From contig NZ_PNFB01000003.1 of assembly GCF_003347015.1 (NCBI RefSeq), positions 62,001 to 126,000 of the forward strand: DNA of 64,000 nt, given 5' to 3'. Source of the stretch: Brachybacterium sp. YJGR34. Its GTDB lineage: Bacteria; Actinomycetota; Actinomycetes; Actinomycetales; Dermabacteraceae. The translations under genes and the position numbers were made by a program. Shown in pieces: positions 16,153 through 24,404 of the stretch. Position 1 is the stretch's first letter; each line of letters starts with the position of its first letter. Below the pieces are notes generated by a model. The model did no database searches, was not told the origin of the DNA, and was given only the letters and a program-made list of their open reading frames with translations.

Positions 16153-16191
16153 ACCAGTCTTGCCGTCCCGGGCGGCGGCGTCAAGACCGGT
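16153..16191. promoter_or_regulatory. Inverted repeat upstream of the ROK operon and selO
   Basis: ACCAGTCTTG (16153-16162) and CAAGACCGGT (16182-16191) form a 10-base inverted repeat with one mismatch in the 133-base divergent region. Candidate site for the ROK regulator, or part of the selO leader. Inference from position. Confidence 0.35.
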
Positions 16192-16219
16192 AGCGTGGTC
16201 GAGGAGGGAGGTGAGGCCG

Positions 16220-17617
16220 ATGAGCGGTCCCGCACTGCATCAGTCCTACGCCGAGGCCCTGCCCGACCTCTCGGTGCCCTGGCGGGCCGAGGCGCCCCCG
16301 GACCCGGCGGTGGCCTGGCTGAACGAGGATCTCGCCCGCGAGCTCGGTCACGACCCCGCGTGGCTGCGCGGCGCGGAGGGCATGGCGCTGCTGACCGGGC
16401 AGATCGAGGGGACCACCGCGCAGGCGTACGCCGGCCATCAGTTCGGCAGCGCGAACCCGCAGCTCGGCGACGGACGGGCCGTGCTGCTGGGCGACCTCGT
16501 GGACACCCGGGGGCGGCGCCGCGACCTGCACCTCAAGGGGGCCGGTCGCACCCCCTTCGCGCGCGGCGGCGACGGCAGGGCGCCCCTGGGGCCGATGCTG
16601 CGCGAGGCCGTGATCGGTGAATGGCTGCACGCCTGCGGCGTGCCGACCACCCGGGCGCTCGCGGTCCTGACCACCGGCGAGCCGATCGCACCGCGGCAGG
16701 GCACCGCCCCGGAGCCGGGCGCGCTGCTGGTGCGGGTCGCCGCCAGCCACCTGCGGGTGGGGACGGTCCAGTACGCGGCCTGGCACCTCGGGCCCGAGGT
16801 GACCGGTGAGCTCGTCGAGCACGCGATCACCCGGCATCACCCGTCGGCCGACGGACCCCTGGGGCTGCTCGAGGCCGTCGCCCGCTCCCAGGCCGAGCTC
16901 GTCGCGCAGTGGATGCTCCTCGGCTTCGTGCACGGGGTGATGAACACCGACAACATGGCGCTCAGCGGGGAGGGCATCGACTACGGACCCTGTGCCGTCC
17001 TCGACGAGCACCGCCGCGGTGCCGTCTTCAGCTCGATCGATCGCGGCGGGCGCTACGCCTACGGGAACCAGCCCGGCATCGCGCTGTGGAACCTCTCCCG
17101 CTTCGCCGAGGCCCTGCTGCCCGTGGTCGACGCGCGCACCCCGGACGATGCCGTCTCGCAGGCCACCGCCGTGCTCGAGGGGTACGAGGGCTGGTACCGC
17201 GACGCCTACGCCCTCCGCCTCGGGCGGGCACTGGGCGTCGACGCCGCGCCGGAGGAGGTGCTCGCGCTCGGCGAGGAGGTGTTCGCCCTGCTCGAGCGGC
17301 TGCGCAGGGACCACACGCGGTCGCTCCGGTCGCTCGGGGCGGGGGACGCCGCGGTGCTCGCCGAGGATCCCGCGCTCGCGGCGCGGTGGCGGGCCTCCGG
17401 CGGCGGCGCAGGGGGCCGCGAGATCGTCACCCCCGTGTACGTGCCGCGGAACATCGCGCTCGAGGAGTCGTTGCGGGCCGCGCACCGCGGAGATCTCGCG
17501 CCGGTGCACGAGATGCTGGACGCGGTCCGCTCCCCGTTCACGGTCCGCGAGGGCCTCGAGCACCTCGAGGGACCGGGCGAGGGCACTGAAGGTTTCACCA
17601 CCTTCTGCGGGACCTGA
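16220..17617 (+). CDS. selO: SelO family protein AMPylator (YdiU/UPF0061)
   Basis: 465 residues; a pseudokinase-fold enzyme that transfers AMP from ATP to protein hydroxyl groups and is linked to oxidative stress in its studied members. Signature segments are AYAGHQFGSANPQLGDGRA, HLKGAGRTPFARGGDGRAP (nucleotide-binding loop), FVHGVMNTDNMALSG and DYGPCAVLD (metal-binding region), and IALWNLSRFAEALLP. The protein ends TFCGT, with Cys at residue 463, where eukaryotic SelO has selenocysteine and E. coli YdiU a redox Cys. GAGGGAGGTGAGG precedes the ATG at 16220; a longer in-frame start at 16160 is less likely. Divergent from the ROK operon. Confidence 0.93.
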   Translation: MSGPALHQSYAEALPDLSVPWRAEAPPDPAVAWLNEDLARELGHDPAWLRGAEGMALLTGQIEGTTAQAYAGHQFGSANPQLGDGRAVLLGDLVDTRGRRRDLHLKGAGRTPFARGGDGRAPLGPMLREAVIGEWLHACGVPTTRALAVLTTGEPIAPRQGTAPEPGALLVRVAASHLRVGTVQYAAWHLGPEVTGELVEHAITRHHPSADGPLGLLEAVARSQAELVAQWMLLGFVHGVMNTDNMALSGEGIDYGPCAVLDEHRRGAVFSSIDRGGRYAYGNQPGIALWNLSRFAEALLPVVDARTPDDAVSQATAVLEGYEGWYRDAYALRLGRALGVDAAPEEVLALGEEVFALLERLRRDHTRSLRSLGAGDAAVLAEDPALAARWRASGGGAGGREIVTPVYVPRNIALEESLRAAHRGDLAPVHEMLDAVRSPFTVREGLEHLEGPGEGTEGFTTFCGT

Positions 17618-19101: not shown

Positions 19102-20742
19102 TCAGCCCAGCGCCGCGAGGATCCGCTCGTCGACCGCACGGCGGGCGCGCAGATGCTCGCCGACGTCGTAGGAGAAGGACGAGTACGTCAGCGTCCCGCC
19201 CTCGTCCACGAGCGCCTTCGCGCTCGGCACGTCCGTGAGCTCCCCCAGCCAGGTCAGCGCCCGATGGTCGGCCATGGCCTGCGCGAACACGCGGTGGCGG
19301 ATCGAGGGCCAGGGGGTGCCGTCGGGCCCCGGGTAGACGGCGAAGGCGTCACCGCCGTAGAAGGCGCCGCCGGCGCAGGTGTCCTCGAAGGGGTCCAGCG
19401 GCGCCAGGGAGAACTGCGTCCACCAGAAGTTGTAGCCCCAGTGCAGGAAGCCGGGGGCGTCGAAGGCGAACAGCTGCCGGCCCAGCACCCGGTTCCGCAC
19501 CGAGGGCAGGGCGATGTAGCGGTTGGCGACCTCCCGGTTCTGGGAGACGCAGTAGTACACCCAGGGCCTCCTCCCGGCATCCAGGAAGGGGCCAACGTGG
19601 TCGCTGGCGACGATCGGGGTGGGCACCAGCCCCTGCTCGGCGAACTCCAGCGAGCTGAGCGCATCGACGATCTGCGCTCCCTCGAGCAGGTCCGCGACCT
19701 GCTCGCGCGCCGCCTGGTAGTCCTCGATGTGGTCCTCCCCCGGCTCGTCGCTGAGGTGCCACAGCACCTGGCCGTCCCAGTGCGCGTCCAGGTGCGCCCG
19801 CAGCGCAGGGATCAGTGCCTCCAGCAGACGGCGATAGGTGGGGGAGGTCGCGGGGACGTGCCATCCGAAGCGGTCCTCGGGGCCGTCCGGGGTGTCGACG
19901 CGGATCGCCGGCGTCGCACGGGCGCCCCACTGGGTGAACAGGTGGGCGATCTCGAGGGAGACGATCCCCAGCTCGCGGCACATCCGCAGCCAGCGGTCCA
20001 GGCGCGTGAAGTCGAAGGAGTACGCGCCGTCGACCTCGCGGATCCCCACCAGCTGGACCGTGGGCCGGCGGTGGTCCACCGCGGTGTCCAGCGGGGGCGT
20101 CCAGGTGGGGGTGAGCACCGAGTTCACGTCCATCTCGCGGGCGGAGGCGAGGCAGGCCCGGATCAGCTCCCAGTGCCGTTCGGAGAACACCTCGACGTCG
20201 TAGTACGTGGAGAGGCTTTCCGCGTGGAGCCAGTGGGTGTTGGTGATCTCCAGCGGCGGCAGGCGGTGGGGATGGACCTGCAGGCGGACCGTGTGCTCGG
20301 CCAGCGGCCGGTCGTCCTCGCCCACGAGGGCGAGCGTCAGCGCGTGGTCGCCGGCGTCTGCCTCGTCCATGGGGAGCACGTCGACCCACAGCGCCTCCCA
20401 GCGGCCGGGGGAGACGGTCGTCGAGTCCCCGGCGAGCGGCTCGAGAAGGTCCGGGTACGCGCCGGGAGCGGTGACCAGGTAGTGCGCGTCCGGGTCCGGG
20501 GGAGCCGGGGTGGAGACCGGCACCCGGCGCACCGCATGGACGCGGGCGCGGGCGGCGAGGGCGCCGCGCAGCTGCACGCGCAGCGGGACGGGGGCGGAGG
20601 CGTCGTCGATCCTCACCGCGAGCTGCACGGAGAGCCTCTCGCCGAGGAATCCGGAGGCGTGGGCGCCCCCGATGAGCTCGGCCGGGCGCGGGGGACGGTC
20701 GCCGAGCACCTTCTCCAGGGAATCGGTCAGGACGGACTGCAC
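19102..20742 (-). CDS. DUF4091 glycoside-hydrolase-like protein
   Basis: 546 residues, no signal peptide, so cytoplasmic. An N-terminal beta-rich region (about 1-170) with WEALWVDVLPMDEADAG and a short extension is followed by a TIM-barrel-like domain with WLHAESLSTYYDVEVFSERHW, the likely acidic catalytic region HLSDEPGEDHIEDY, and the DUF4091 end APGFLHWGYNFWWTQFSLAP...YPGPDGTPWPSIRHRV. The family is associated with glycosidases such as GH123; activity here is inferred. GTG start at 20742 with GAGGAG five bases upstream. It stands alone between a terminator and a short unusual ORF on the other strand, so no pathway is evident. Confidence 0.8.
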   Translation of the reverse strand: MQSVLTDSLEKVLGDRPPRPAELIGGAHASGFLGERLSVQLAVRIDDASAPVPLRVQLRGALAARARVHAVRRVPVSTPAPPDPDAHYLVTAPGAYPDLLEPLAGDSTTVSPGRWEALWVDVLPMDEADAGDHALTLALVGEDDRPLAEHTVRLQVHPHRLPPLEITNTHWLHAESLSTYYDVEVFSERHWELIRACLASAREMDVNSVLTPTWTPPLDTAVDHRRPTVQLVGIREVDGAYSFDFTRLDRWLRMCRELGIVSLEIAHLFTQWGARATPAIRVDTPDGPEDRFGWHVPATSPTYRRLLEALIPALRAHLDAHWDGQVLWHLSDEPGEDHIEDYQAAREQVADLLEGAQIVDALSSLEFAEQGLVPTPIVASDHVGPFLDAGRRPWVYYCVSQNREVANRYIALPSVRNRVLGRQLFAFDAPGFLHWGYNFWWTQFSLAPLDPFEDTCAGGAFYGGDAFAVYPGPDGTPWPSIRHRVFAQAMADHRALTWLGELTDVPSAKALVDEGGTLTYSSFSYDVGEHLRARRAVDERILAALG

Positions 20743-20834: not shown

Positions 20835-20863
20835 TTGCCCCGCGGGGCGGGGGGGTCTACGGT
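20835..20863 (+). promoter_or_regulatory. Promoter of the 12-codon ORF
   Basis: TTGCCC (20835-20840) and TACGGT (20858-20863) with 17-base spacing. Transcription would start about seven bases before the extended Shine-Dalgarno sequence. Confidence 0.6.
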
Positions 20864-20875
20864 GGTCGGACACTG

Positions 20876-20890
20876 GAAAGGAGGTGATCC
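20876..20890 (+). promoter_or_regulatory. Extended Shine-Dalgarno sequence, 15 bases complementary to the 16S rRNA 3' end
   Basis: GAAAGGAGGTGATCC is the exact complement of the GGATCACCTCCTTTC terminus of bacterial 16S rRNA. Ordinary sites in this window match four to seven bases. It ends five bases before the GTG of the short ORF at 20896. Confidence 0.8.
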
Positions 20891-20895
20891 GAGAA

Positions 20896-20934
20896 GTGAT
20901 TTCTTATCGGACATGTGAGGTGGCTCGCCGCTGA
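20896..20934 (+). CDS. Twelve-codon ORF with hyper-strong ribosome binding site
   Basis: GTG ATT TCT ... CGC CGC TGA encodes MISYRTCEVARR. Function unknown. It has its own promoter (20835-20863), an SD of maximal complementarity and several infrequent codons (TCT, TAT, TGT) against the local bias. A hairpin with a bulged base (20921-20929 with 20935-20942) spans its stop codon, and a second hairpin CCCGC-TCCG-GCGGG (20952-20965) follows. Possible readings: a regulatory peptide, a sensor of free 30S subunits, or a small RNA that titrates the anti-Shine-Dalgarno. The next gene starts at 21095 with a separate -10 element. I have an impression of similar EVARR-ending short ORFs in other actinobacteria but cannot check it. 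Confidence 0.55.
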   Translation: MISYRTCEVARR

Positions 20935-20965
20935 GGCGACCATCGACCTGACCCGCTCCGGCGGG

Positions 20966-21094
20966 CCTTCAGATCGACGGACGCGCAGCGAATACCACCG
21001 AGCTGCCGGGACCCCCAGGGGTCGGATCTCGTCCCTCCGACCAGCGCCTCGTGCGCGACCTGGGGGTCTTCCCCTGCCCGGATACCCTGCGGGC
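20966..21094 (+). other. Intergenic region with competing inverted repeats
   Basis: Between the 12-codon ORF and the esterase. GACCCCCAGG (21010-21019) can pair locally with the adjacent GGGGTC (to 21023) or over longer range with CCTGGGGGTC (21059-21068). TACCCT (21083-21088) is a probable -10 for the esterase. No coding sequence is evident. Confidence 0.4.
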
Positions 21095-21763
21095 ATGACG
21101 CAGAGCCCCCTGACCCTGATCTCCCCGGACCTCGATCCCGGCGCCGTGGTGCGCGAGGAGGCGGAGCCCGGCGCGGGGATCGTCCTGCTCCTGCACGGCC
21201 TGGGCAGCCATGAGGGTGACCTCGCGGGTCTGATCCCGCTGCTGCCGGCCCGTTTCACCTATGTCTCCGTGCGGGGCATCCACCGGTACGGGGCGGGTTT
21301 CGCCTGGCTCGAGCATCCGCTCGATCCCGAGCGCCCCGCGGCGCTGGAGGCCTCGGCCCAGGCGGTCGAGCGCTGGATCGCCGCGCAGGAGGCCCCGGTC
21401 GTGGGCGCCATCGGCTTCTCCCAGGGCGGGATGCTCGCCCTGCAGCTGCTGCGTCGCAGCCCTCGCGCGCTGGACTTCGTCGTGAACCTCTCCGGTGCGC
21501 CCTTCCCGGCGCCGATGCCCGGCGATGCCGCGCTCGCCGAGGCCTCCCCGCCGGTGCTGTGGGGCCACGGCGGCCTGGATCCTCTGTTCGACGAGGACCG
21601 CGAGGAGCAGGTGCGCCGCTACCTGCGCGAGCACACGCAGCTGAGCGAGGTGCTCCGCCCCGCCCTGGGTCATGCGGTGGACGAGGTCGAGGTGGAGGCG
21701 ATCGTGCGGTTCCTCGCGGAGCTGCCGGGCACGGATGCTCCCGCCGGCGGCGCACCGGCCTGA
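21095..21763 (+). CDS. Alpha/beta hydrolase, carboxylesterase/phospholipase type
   Basis: 222 residues, cytoplasmic, of the small serine-esterase type. It shows LLLHGLGSHEGD (oxyanion region, residues about 30-41), GFSQGG (nucleophile Ser about residue 108), then WGHGGLDPLF (Asp) and LGHAVDEVEVE (His). The catalytic triad is complete. Typical substrates are short acyl esters or lysophospholipids. The ATG at 21095 lies six bases after TACCCT and lacks a ribosome binding site, so the message is probably leaderless and separate from the short ORF upstream. An in-frame upstream extension to 20915 exists but gives a non-family N-terminus. Confidence 0.88.
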   Translation: MTQSPLTLISPDLDPGAVVREEAEPGAGIVLLLHGLGSHEGDLAGLIPLLPARFTYVSVRGIHRYGAGFAWLEHPLDPERPAALEASAQAVERWIAAQEAPVVGAIGFSQGGMLALQLLRRSPRALDFVVNLSGAPFPAPMPGDAALAEASPPVLWGHGGLDPLFDEDREEQVRRYLREHTQLSEVLRPALGHAVDEVEVEAIVRFLAELPGTDAPAGGAPA

Positions 21764-21886: not shown

Positions 21887-21979
21887 ATGAGCGCCGCCAG
21901 CGACGCCCCCAGTGACAGTCGAAGGCCTTCGGGCCTGAGCAGACGCACGTCCCACGGGGGGATCCGTCCATGGACCTGA
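21887..21979 (+). CDS. Possible leader ORF overlapping the first CNNM gene
   Basis: ATG at 21887 is preceded by CCAGGAGACC, a better ribosome binding site than that of the real gene. The 30-residue product (MSAASDAPSDSRRPSGLSRR... ending PWT) is Ser/Arg/Pro-rich and uses codons rare in this genome (AGT, CGA, AGG, AGA). Its TGA lies at 21977-21979, eight bases inside the CNNM coding region in another frame, so termination and re-initiation would be coupled. A TTCG-loop hairpin (AGGCC/GGCCT, about 21921-21935) sits within it. It could be a regulatory leader peptide, as known for some magnesium transporter genes, or a structured RNA with a chance ORF. Confidence 0.4.
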   Translation: MSAASDAPSDSRRPSGLSRRTSHGGIRPWT

Positions 21980-23367
21980 TCGGTCCCCTCATATCCCTGG
22001 CGGTCGGCCTGGTGCTGATCGCCGCCTGCGGTGGCTTCGTGGCCGCCGAGTTCTCCCTGATCACCGCCAACCGCAACGACGTCGAAGCCGCCGTCGAGGC
22101 CGGCGACAAGCGCGCCGTGGGCGTGCTGCGGGGCATGAAGACCCTCTCCACGCAGCTCTCCGGCGCCCAGCTGGGCATCACCGTCACCAACCTGGGCATC
22201 GGCTTCCTCGCCGAGCCCGCGATCGCCGCGCTGGTGAGCCCCCCGCTGGTCGACCTCGGACTGACCGCCGTCGCCGCCCGCTCGGTCTCCGTGATCATCG
22301 CCCTCGTGCTCGCCACGGGGATGACCATGATCTTCGGCGAGCTGGTCCCCAAGAACCTCGCGATCGCCGAGCCGCTGAAGACCGCGAAGTTCGTCGTCGG
22401 CTTCCAACGGGCCTTCACCACCGTCTTCAAGCTGCCGATCCGCCTGTTCAACGGCAATGCGAACGCCGTGGTGCGGATGCTCGGGGTCGAGCCGCAGGAG
22501 GAGCTGAGCTCCGCCCGCAGCGCGGAGGAGCTCTCCGTCCTGGTCAAGCACTCCGCGGAGGAGGGTGCACTGGCGGAGGAGACCGCCTCGCTGGTCCAGC
22601 GCACCCTCGCCTTCGGCGACCGTCGCGCGCACGACGCGATGGTGCCCCGCGGGCGGATGGACTCCCTCGAGGTCGACCAGTCCGTCGCCGAGCTGCTGGA
22701 GCTGGCCCGCACCACCGGCCACTCCCGCTTCCCCGTGCTGGACGACGAGAACGAGATCGCGGGCGTCGCGCACATCCGCCACGGCCTCGCGATCCCCTTC
22801 GCACAGCGCGCGCGCACCCGGGTCGACGCCGTGATGGGGCCGGCCACCTTCGTGCCGGACACCGTCCCGCTGGACGACCTCATGGACACCCTCCGCGCCG
22901 GCGGCCTGCAGATGGCCGTGGTGGTCGACGAGTTCGGCGACCACGCCGGGCTGATCACCCTCGAGGACCTGGTCGAGGAGATCGTCGGCGAGGTCCGCGA
23001 CGAGCACGACGAGGAGATGGACGACACCCCCGAGCCCGACGGCTCCTGGGACCTCGACGCCCGGATGCGGCCCGACGAGGCCGCCGAGCGGCTCGGCGTC
23101 AGCGTGCCCGAGCACGAGGACTACGACACCCTGGGCGGCTTGGTCACCCTCGAGCTGGGACGCCTGGCCGAGGTCGGCGACGAGGTGGTGGTCGACACCG
23201 ACCCCGCCCCCGGGGAGGAGCCCGCGCGACTGCGGATCCGCGTCACCGAGGTCGACGGCCTGCGCATCGAGACGGTGCACGCGAACGTCGAGCAGGTCGA
23301 CCCGGACCATGAGGACGACGAGCCGAGCGACGCGCTCCGGCGCGAGGAGAGCGGGGTGCGGCGATGA
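21970..23367 (+). CDS. CNNM/HlyC-CorC family transporter (first of pair)
   Basis: 465 residues. An N-terminal CNNM membrane domain with four hydrophobic segments (FVAAEFSLITANRNDVE, QLGITVTNLGIGFLAEP, FGELVPKNLAIAEP) is followed by two CBS domains (about 215-340; HSRFPVLDDENEIAGV and GLITLEDLVEEIVGEV) and a C-terminal CorC-HlyC domain ending in an acidic tail. Members move or regulate Mg2+, Co2+ or Na+. Start chosen at the ATG at 21970. It overlaps the next gene by four bases (ATGA). A leader ORF and a hairpin precede it, hinting at post-transcriptional control. Confidence 0.93.
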   Translation: MDLIGPLISLAVGLVLIAACGGFVAAEFSLITANRNDVEAAVEAGDKRAVGVLRGMKTLSTQLSGAQLGITVTNLGIGFLAEPAIAALVSPPLVDLGLTAVAARSVSVIIALVLATGMTMIFGELVPKNLAIAEPLKTAKFVVGFQRAFTTVFKLPIRLFNGNANAVVRMLGVEPQEELSSARSAEELSVLVKHSAEEGALAEETASLVQRTLAFGDRRAHDAMVPRGRMDSLEVDQSVAELLELARTTGHSRFPVLDDENEIAGVAHIRHGLAIPFAQRARTRVDAVMGPATFVPDTVPLDDLMDTLRAGGLQMAVVVDEFGDHAGLITLEDLVEEIVGEVRDEHDEEMDDTPEPDGSWDLDARMRPDEAAERLGVSVPEHEDYDTLGGLVTLELGRLAEVGDEVVVDTDPAPGEEPARLRIRVTEVDGLRIETVHANVEQVDPDHEDDEPSDALRREESGVRR

Positions 23368-24404
23368 GCACCGGCCTCGGACTGACCCTCACCCTCGTGC
23401 TGCTGGCGCTGAACGCCTTCTTCGTCGGCTCCGAGTTCGCGCTGATCTCCGCGCGCCGCTCGGTGATCGAGCCCAAGGCCCTCGAGGGCCACTGGGCCGC
23501 GAAGGTCACCATCGGCGCGATGGAGCAGATCTCCCTCATGATGGCCGGTGCCCAGATGGGCATCACCGTCGCCTCCCTCGCCCTCGGCGCGATCAGCGAG
23601 CCGGCGATCGCCCACCTCATCGAAGGGCCGCTGGAGATGCTCGGAGTGCCGGGCGCCTTCACCCATCCGATCGCCTTCGTCATCGCGCTGGCGCTGGTCA
23701 CCTACCTGCACGTGGTCTTCGGCGAGATGGTGCCCAAGAACATCGCACTGGCCGGACCGGAGCGGATGGCGCTCATCCTCGCCCCGCCGATGGTCGCCGT
23801 GGTCACCGTGCTGCGTCCCCTGCTGTGGGTGCTCAACGGCTGCGGCAACCAGGTGCTGCGCATCCTCGGGGTCACCCCGAAGGACGAGGTCACCAGCGCC
23901 TTCAGCCGTAATGAGGTGGCGGCCATGGTCAGCGAGTCCCGTCAGGGCGGTCTGCTCGAGGACAACGACGAGGCGCTGCTGCTGGGCGCGCTGCGCTTCG
24001 ATGCGCGCAGCGTCGCGAACCTCGTGATCCCGCTGGATCAGGTCTCGACCCTCGCCGAGGGGGCCACCGCCGCCCAGGCGGAGGCAGCCGCCGTCGAGGG
24101 CTACTCCCGCTTCCCCGTGCAGGCGGCGGACGGGACGCTGACCGGCTACGTCCACATCAAGGACCTGCTGGACGCCGTCCAGGAGCGCCGCGACGCCCCG
24201 ATCCCCGCCGCCCGGGTCCGGACCCTGCCCGCGATCGGCGCCGAGGAGCCGTTGCGCCAGGCGCTCGCTTCGATGCAGGACTCCGGCGCCCACCTGGGCG
24301 CGGCCACCGATGCGGACGGCCGCGTGATCGGCATCGTGACCCTCGAGGACATGCTGGAGGAGCTCGTGGGACAGATCCGCGACGACTCGAGGATCGCCGC
24401 ATGA
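23364..24404 (+). CDS. CNNM/HlyC-CorC family transporter (second of pair)
   Basis: 346 residues, a shorter paralogue of the preceding protein. CNNM domain (NAFFVGSEFALISARRSVIE, AQMGITVASLALGAISEP, FGEMVPKNIALAGP) and paired CBS domains (YSRFPVQAADGTLTGYV; GIVTLEDMLEELVGQI), but no C-terminal CorC-HlyC domain. Tandem long/short CNNM pairs are common in actinobacteria and may form hetero-oligomers. Translationally coupled on both sides by 4-base overlaps, upstream with the longer paralogue and downstream with a methyltransferase. Confidence 0.92.
   Translation: MSTGLGLTLTLVLLALNAFFVGSEFALISARRSVIEPKALEGHWAAKVTIGAMEQISLMMAGAQMGITVASLALGAISEPAIAHLIEGPLEMLGVPGAFTHPIAFVIALALVTYLHVVFGEMVPKNIALAGPERMALILAPPMVAVVTVLRPLLWVLNGCGNQVLRILGVTPKDEVTSAFSRNEVAAMVSESRQGGLLEDNDEALLLGALRFDARSVANLVIPLDQVSTLAEGATAAQAEAAAVEGYSRFPVQAADGTLTGYVHIKDLLDAVQERRDAPIPAARVRTLPAIGAEEPLRQALASMQDSGAHLGAATDADGRVIGIVTLEDMLEELVGQIRDDSRIAA

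Follow-up and report, generated by a model that had tools for sequence, protein, structure and literature searches.

In trp-type attenuators and ermC-type leaders the translation of a short open reading frame (ORF) alters the pairing of the RNA, and the same is proposed here for a small RNA of Brachybacterium sp. YJGR34. SgrS/SgrT and RNAIII likewise join a regulatory RNA to a short translated ORF, and 6S RNA and tmRNA are stand-alone structured RNAs which engage RNA polymerase or the ribosome. To our knowledge, RNAs that read the state of translation are known mainly from the leaders of single operons. The RNA described here differs from all of these systems. Unlike the leader-ORF riboregulators it stands alone and no conserved gene follows it, and in contrast to SgrS/SgrT and RNAIII the first half of its peptide is not conserved. 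The window, i.e. the whole stretch of 64,000 nucleotides that was analysed, has no match to 6S RNA or tmRNA at the curated thresholds.

The RNA belongs to a family that already has a name. It is the same RNA as Ms_IGR-5, an actinobacterial sRNA (Rfam RF02471); the match covers the model completely (positions 1-184 of 184), lies above the gathering score and is the only one in the whole genome (Table 1). The visible record of the Rfam entry holds neither an ORF nor a function. Covariance models of the Rfam type cannot represent pseudoknots, and the pseudoknot described below is absent from the Rfam consensus; as this consensus also leaves the 3' motif unpaired, the helix P3 is missing from the Rfam model too. 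In the accessible parts of the literature, the Streptomyces lividans homologue SLIV_16488 is listed with RNA-seq support 'yes' (PMC8079986), the S. avermitilis homologue appears as an sRNA transcription unit (PMC8780764) and the MS_IGR-5 homologues of Mycobacterium abscessus and M. smegmatis carry ribosome reads (PMC4974804). The last paper cautions that non-coding RNPs leave footprints as well. The accessible parts of PMC11133741, PMC5521070, PMC6429828, PMC8079986 and PMC4046766 describe neither the ORF nor its pairing in P3 and the pseudoknot, and they assign no function. In the open-access literature, as far as its texts are accessible, no prior description was found of the ORF, the second Shine-Dalgarno sequence (SD2), P3, the pseudoknot or the spread beyond Actinobacteria.

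The unit is no orphan: the family is known to Rfam and is present in several phyla, which an earlier sequence-only reading of this DNA had missed. Its proposal of a self-standing unit with an own promoter and an RNA function is supported. Within the genus 33 of 38 genomes carry an RF02471 match, which is beyond chance, and 34 of 47 do so in the family sample. The features that it had read from the letters, namely a promoter with a start close to the first Shine-Dalgarno sequence (SD1), the 15-base match to the 16S rRNA 3' end, the 12-codon ORF and a stop codon in a hairpin that is followed by a second one, were all recovered. SD2 at its fixed distance from the stop, the long-range helix P3 and the pseudoknot had escaped it.

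Table 1 Features of the Ms_IGR-5 locus and its neighbours (positions of the window)
Feature	Position	Strand	Basis
Upstream neighbour, GH123-type glycoside hydrolase	19102..20742	-	Pfam PF13320, E 2.9e-101
Promoter: TTGCCC 20835-20840, 17-nt spacer, TACGGT 20858-20863	20835..20863	+	sequence
RNA gene RF02471 (Ms_IGR-5)	20870..21075	+	cmscan on the window, 69 bits, cut-off 45
SD1, 15-nt complement of the 16S rRNA 3' end	20876..20890	+	sequence match
P1: UCCGA 20888-20892 with UCGGA 20907-20911, start codon in the loop	20888..20911	+	minimum free energy fold
12-codon ORF MISYRTCEVARR, GTG start, TGA stop 20932-20934	20896..20934	+	frame conservation
Pseudoknot 5' strand GGAC, partner GUCC 21031-21034	20909..20912	+	swap test, RNAalifold, covariation
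SD2 GAGGUG, second anti-Shine-Dalgarno complement (CACCUC)	20917..20922	+	59/59 Rfam-found loci
P3 5' strand, codons Glu to Arg, pairs with 20999-21007	20919..20927	+	fold, covariation
P2 hairpin with the stop codon inside	20929..20990	+	fold; sequence variable among relatives
Linker GAAUACCA (family motif GAAUCCCA), unpaired	20991..20998	+	fold, alignment
P3 3' strand, family motif NCAGnYCACC	20999..21007	+	alignment, swap test, covariation
H3 hairpin, likely terminator stem here	21008..21070	+	fold, covariation
H3 apical loop with GUCC 21031-21034 (pseudoknot 3' strand)	21027..21035	+	fold
Downstream neighbour, phospholipase/carboxylesterase-type hydrolase	21095..21763	+	Pfam PF02230, E 6e-15

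The transcription start, as read from the promoter sequence, is predicted near 20870 and thus 6 nt ahead of the 15-mer. A TANNNT motif lies upstream in 79 of the 93 representatives of the relatives, in 68 of these 12-13 nt before the 15-mer. The 15-mer GAAAGGAGGTGATCC has its sole exact copy of the window at SD1. In the 3.99-Mb genome GAAAGGAGGTGRTCC occurs at two sites, here and antisense to the end of a 16S rRNA gene, so that SD1 is the exact complement of the organism's own 16S 3' tail. Pairing was counted throughout against the 16S tail of the window's own organism, Watson-Crick and G-U pairs both being allowed. The full 15 positions are pairable in 51 of 52 distinct Rfam-found loci; in other phyla this holds for 39 of 64 sequences, and at least 14 positions are pairable in 54 of 64. 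By eye, the loci L194-L198 show an extra A in SD1 (GGAGGATG-GTC), which would form a bulge in an otherwise kept 16S pairing.

The distribution of the family was followed with the Rfam model, with a pattern of the conserved 5' part and with R1, a sequence-only model of the 5' core whose matches were counted if E was at most 0.001. Wherever more than 40 genomes were searched, stricter filters applied, by which weak matches are lost. In the phylum sample the Rfam model matched 57 of 296 genomes, 26 of them above the cut-off, and none of 14 control genomes. The title of RF02471 speaks of Actinobacteria, yet one Zixibacteria-labelled contig exceeds its cut-off. The pattern yielded at least 119 loci over 84,980 species genomes, and the 119 retrieved all entered the analysis. 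In this pattern GAGGTGRCYG is fixed along with 13 of the 15 bases of SD1, so that counts of SD1 and of the hexamer are biased in the pattern-found loci; start and stop are left free. Among the 80 pattern matches listed, ten come from genomes with labels outside the Actinobacteria (Sumerlaeota, Deltaproteobacteria, Bryobacterales, Nitrospinae, Zixibacteria, Acidobacteriota/Acidobacteriia and Spirochaetia), and one has no label beyond 'bacterium'. L115, which belongs to these ten, shows an Acidimicrobiia-like core and may be mis-binned.

In the window's class R1 had matches in 131 of 197 genomes, belonging to 58 of 91 genera; the phylum of the Nitrospinae-labelled genome gave 15 of 18, and the phylum of the Sumerlaeota-labelled one 16 of 40. 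In the phyla of the genomes labelled Bryobacterales (22/119), Deltaproteobacteria (one such genome; 3/118), Spirochaetia (5/100) and Zixibacteria (28/80) the matches near E 1e-4 may include chance hits; an SD1-like sequence with a GAGGT site is present in 49 of the 50 loci fetched from those four phyla, L204 having none. Each of the eleven genomes tested at the outset gave a single match. The R1-found set from the other phyla comprises 73 loci with 64 distinct sequences, 7 of which are shared with the first set. R1 includes the stop, and the site finder demanded both GGAGG and GAGGT and favoured sites followed by a stop; in this set the count of start frames is therefore the only unbiased one. 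L080, L157 and L161 were removed before clustering, and L150 before the counts of frame, stop and hexamer.

In the window the frame of the ORF is listed as the tail of a longer one; the relatives are in register with the 12-codon reading. For the frame test an NTG start was sought 0-8 nt behind the 15-mer, open to the GAG, in distinct SD-to-stop sequences. An in-frame start is present in 154 of 159 sequences, with 1 and 6 for the other two frames, and the stop lies exactly at GAG+15 in 157 of 159. The Rfam-found subset (start 50/52, other frames 0 and 3, stop 52/52) and the pattern-found subset (start 106/109, other frames 1 and 3, stop 107/109) behave alike, and of another 57 distinct sequences, taken from other phyla, 55 have the in-frame start and none has one in either other frame. 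Modulo 3, the SD1-to-GAG distance varies over all residues, yet the start codon stays in the frame of the stop, which shows that the frame is under selection; an ORF by chance is rejected by the same counts. From this conservation we consider it very probable that the ORF is translated. The start codons of the first set are ATG (64), TTG (52), GTG (30) and CTG (12), with none in 2 (n=160). Two loci deviate in other ways. L162 is the only one of the 160 in which the GAG frame has no nearby stop; its TTG frame ends with TAG in another register. L186 has two in-frame GAGGTG hexamers in one ORF, which looks like a duplication of the ORF end.

The predicted fold of the window RNA is more stable than all 200 shuffled sequences (z -4.0). 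In the minimum free energy structure P1, P3 and H3 are formed and the loop UCUCGUCCC is free; the stop codon lies in P2, and the large hairpin H3 comes after it. Long-range pairing was examined in alignment A1, which consists of 62 of the 94 representatives, less than 80% identical and chosen by hand for spread; among those outside A1 are the Bryobacterales-type L091, L108 and L133, the 3' half of which could not be aligned. The P3 strands (GGUGRCYGNN with NCAGnYCACC) pair with their own partners at -17.9 kcal/mol and with swapped partners at -14.2 +/- 0.3, and the pseudoknot strands GGAC/GUCC at -8.5 versus -6.7 +/- 0.2; in both cases 0 of 2000 swaps reached the own value. Two control pairings gave no signal in the same swap test (1169 and 311 of 2000). 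For ten pairs, five of the pseudoknot and five of P3, 88.7% of the cells are paired compared with 20.5-42.8% when the strands are slid, and 107 cells show a double change against 37 +/- 5 in shuffled data. GUC of the H3 loop is at least 90% conserved in A1. P3 is also seen in 28 loci of other phyla (-10.6 versus -9.3 +/- 0.3 for swapped partners; 0/2000), these being the ones of 45 with an anchor in the 3' motif (17 were unscored), some of them near-identical and one, L209, anchored at the wrong place. RNAalifold on the whole alignment recovered the pseudoknot and three pairs inside SD1 and missed P3; in some rows of the MAFFT alignment a bulged base displaces the CACC part. Taken together, P3 and the pseudoknot are almost certain to form.

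P1 around the start codon would be an attractive element; its covariation is weak (swapped partners match the own ones in 26 of 2000). P1 and the pseudoknot are mutually exclusive. The 3' strand of P3 resembles the 16S anti-Shine-Dalgarno sequence GAUCACC. In L080 and L106 (Tsukamurella) SD1, the ORF, GAGGUG and the stop are kept, and by eye the 3' half seems to be missing; the sequence after the stop of L080 looks unlike P2, the 3' motif and H3, so the 5' module may exist alone.

SD2 precedes the stop codon by 9 nt and the last sense codon by 6 nt. Every Rfam-found locus (59 of 59) has the hexamer, though its first two bases, G and A, fall outside P3. Nine nucleotides are also the commonest spacing between the SD1 hexamer and the start in the first set (77/154), equal to that from SD2 to the stop; in the second set 8 nt is commonest (20/56) and 9 nt occurs in 7 of 56. 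With the stop in the A site, GAGGUG lies 6 nt upstream of the P-site codon and the 16S tail is within reach. This geometry suggests that SD2 may hold the terminating ribosome. UAG is over-used as the stop in the pattern-found set (83/110 versus 165/606 long ORFs of the same loci); the preference is less clear in the Rfam-found set, with TAG 21 and TGA 30 of 52 versus 40 and 90 of 142 long ORFs. UAA is rare (9/160 in the first set), and all 22 distinct ORFs of the window's genus end with UGA. In two R1-found sets UAG amounts to 18/20 versus 9/40 and 14/18 versus 10/45, which is non-independent evidence owing to the biased finder.

Frame and position of the stop are conserved and most of the peptide is free, which suggests that the ribosome controls the shape of the RNA. 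We tentatively propose, with a confidence a little short of an even chance, a free-standing structured RNA, about 200 nt long, in which a single translating ribosome gates the fold. Comparison between relatives supports the promoter-like site, SD1, the frame, the stop position, P3, the pseudoknot and the drift of the peptide; translation in this organism, a ribosome that holds at the stop and a switch of the fold are what we infer. SD1 would capture a 30S subunit just after transcription begins, and the ribosome would read about 11-15 codons, the identity of which is nearly irrelevant. On its way it would melt the GGAC pseudoknot and, after that, the long helix P3. The stop would be placed such that SD2 comes within reach of the anti-Shine-Dalgarno sequence of the terminating ribosome. 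As long as this ribosome waits at the stop, both the CAGnYCACC motif of the 3' part and the GUCC-bearing loop of H3 would be free; its departure or absence would restore the pseudoknotted form. Two forms of the RNA, ribosome-bound and ribosome-free, would result, and the downstream action, in trans or via the stability of the RNA itself, would track the activity of initiation and of termination/recycling.

The main rivals of this ribosome-gated RNA are a ribosome sink and a plain sRNA with a protective ORF. As a sink the RNA would be the translational counterpart of 6S RNA: SD1 and SD2 would occupy 30S or 70S particles and lower initiation elsewhere, the fold merely regulating how much of the RNA is available. 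Two anti-Shine-Dalgarno complements within one short RNA, a 16S-tail pairing of up to 15 out of 15 possible pairs that is largely kept in other phyla, and the single match in each of the eleven genomes first tested would suit it. A sink would, however, need an abundance comparable with that of its target, and it could do without the fixed position of the stop and without covariation in the pseudoknot; we consider it unlikely. A plain trans-acting sRNA, in which the 3' part is the effector and the ORF merely protects or times the RNA, is suggested by the classification in Rfam and by the reported transcript of S. lividans and sRNA unit of S. avermitilis. It leaves the exact placement of GAGGUG and stop unexplained, and it appears improbable to us to a similar degree.

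A leader-ORF attenuator would control the next gene in cis with H3 as terminator. The leader ORF, the long-range helices and the terminator-like stem are reminiscent of such a device, and the next gene is co-directional in the window, L099, L101 and L115. P3 and the pseudoknot overlap the ORF, and no antiterminator was identified. The genes themselves speak against it. According to Pfam the next gene in eight loci encodes a hydrolase, a THAP4-like protein, a HEAT repeat protein, a histidine kinase, a nitroreductase, YtoQ, the ribosomal protein L31 and a PLP enzyme, and among the loci listed it lies on the opposite strand in L061, L076, L077, L087 and L132, as judged from gene calls that are crude for G+C-rich DNA. 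A conserved co-directional downstream gene was not found among the lineages examined, in keeping with the statement of the sequence-only reading that no neighbour explains the unit. Because the next gene varies by lineage and is sometimes on the opposite strand, a common cis target is unlikely; an attenuator of a fixed gene is disfavoured, and we regard this explanation as very unlikely. In the acidobacterial L108 and L133 rpmE, the gene of L31, is next downstream (L133 by Pfam, L108 by eye), which would suit an attenuator. In L077 (Mycobacterium) and L076 (Nocardia) an opposite-strand gene for a THAP4-like heme-binding (FABP-like) protein adjoins (Pfam, L077), a neighbourhood which we take to be the Rv0812/Rv0813c region of M. 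tuberculosis.

A dual-function sRNA with a functional micropeptide is highly improbable. The frame is conserved, and within the genus pN/pS is 0.21 for codons 6-7, and in codons 8-12 the amino acids never change (22 distinct ORFs, simple pairwise counting that ignores the tree); taken alone, the conservation of codons 6-12 would fit a conserved peptide too. Codons 2-5 of the same ORFs, however, have a pN/pS of 1.64 by the same counting. The ORFs elsewhere are mostly 11-15 codons long, a few up to 19, with first halves that are unlike each other, and the third bases of GAG and GTG are kept in 59 of 59 loci not selected for the hexamer. The constant end of the peptide is accounted for by its bases, which form the pseudoknot and P3, and its variable positions track this pairing. 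Purifying selection on the peptide was thus not found, codons 2-5 drifting and codons 6-12 overlapping the pseudoknot and P3. The sequence-only reading had named frameshift-tolerant variation of the 12 codons as a result that would speak against it, and the outcome is split: the frame proved to be strictly kept, and the amino acids at codons 2-5 drift. Of its interpretation, the RNA function, the signs of translation and the link to the ribosome hold up; the conserved micropeptide is not supported. An antisense copy of 16S rRNA is rejected, as the other site of the 15-mer in the genome belongs to the 16S gene itself and the remainder of the RNA has no rRNA match, and so is a phage element, as the strict pattern gave 0 matches to viral contigs.

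If the ribosome controls the fold, the ribosome-gated RNA would be a free-standing bacterial RNA that reads the state of translation itself. Possibly, though we have some doubt, it stands for a class of stand-alone ribosome-gated RNAs that is so far unrecognised and may be ancient. In such a class the ORF would be obligatory and yet neutral as to its peptide, an extended Shine-Dalgarno sequence would capture the ribosome and a second one would sit on it at termination, and a pseudoknotted 3' part would switch and thereby report the capacity for initiation and for termination/recycling. In any case, an actinobacterial sRNA that had a name and no explanation is present in several phyla, laboratory actinomycetes being among those with relatives of it; its translation frame is conserved and its peptide largely free. 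Further away in the window, the product of the ORF at 16160-17617, upstream of the RNA, presumably resembles SelO, and the products of two consecutive ORFs at 21970-24404 presumably resemble CNNM/CorC-type membrane proteins.
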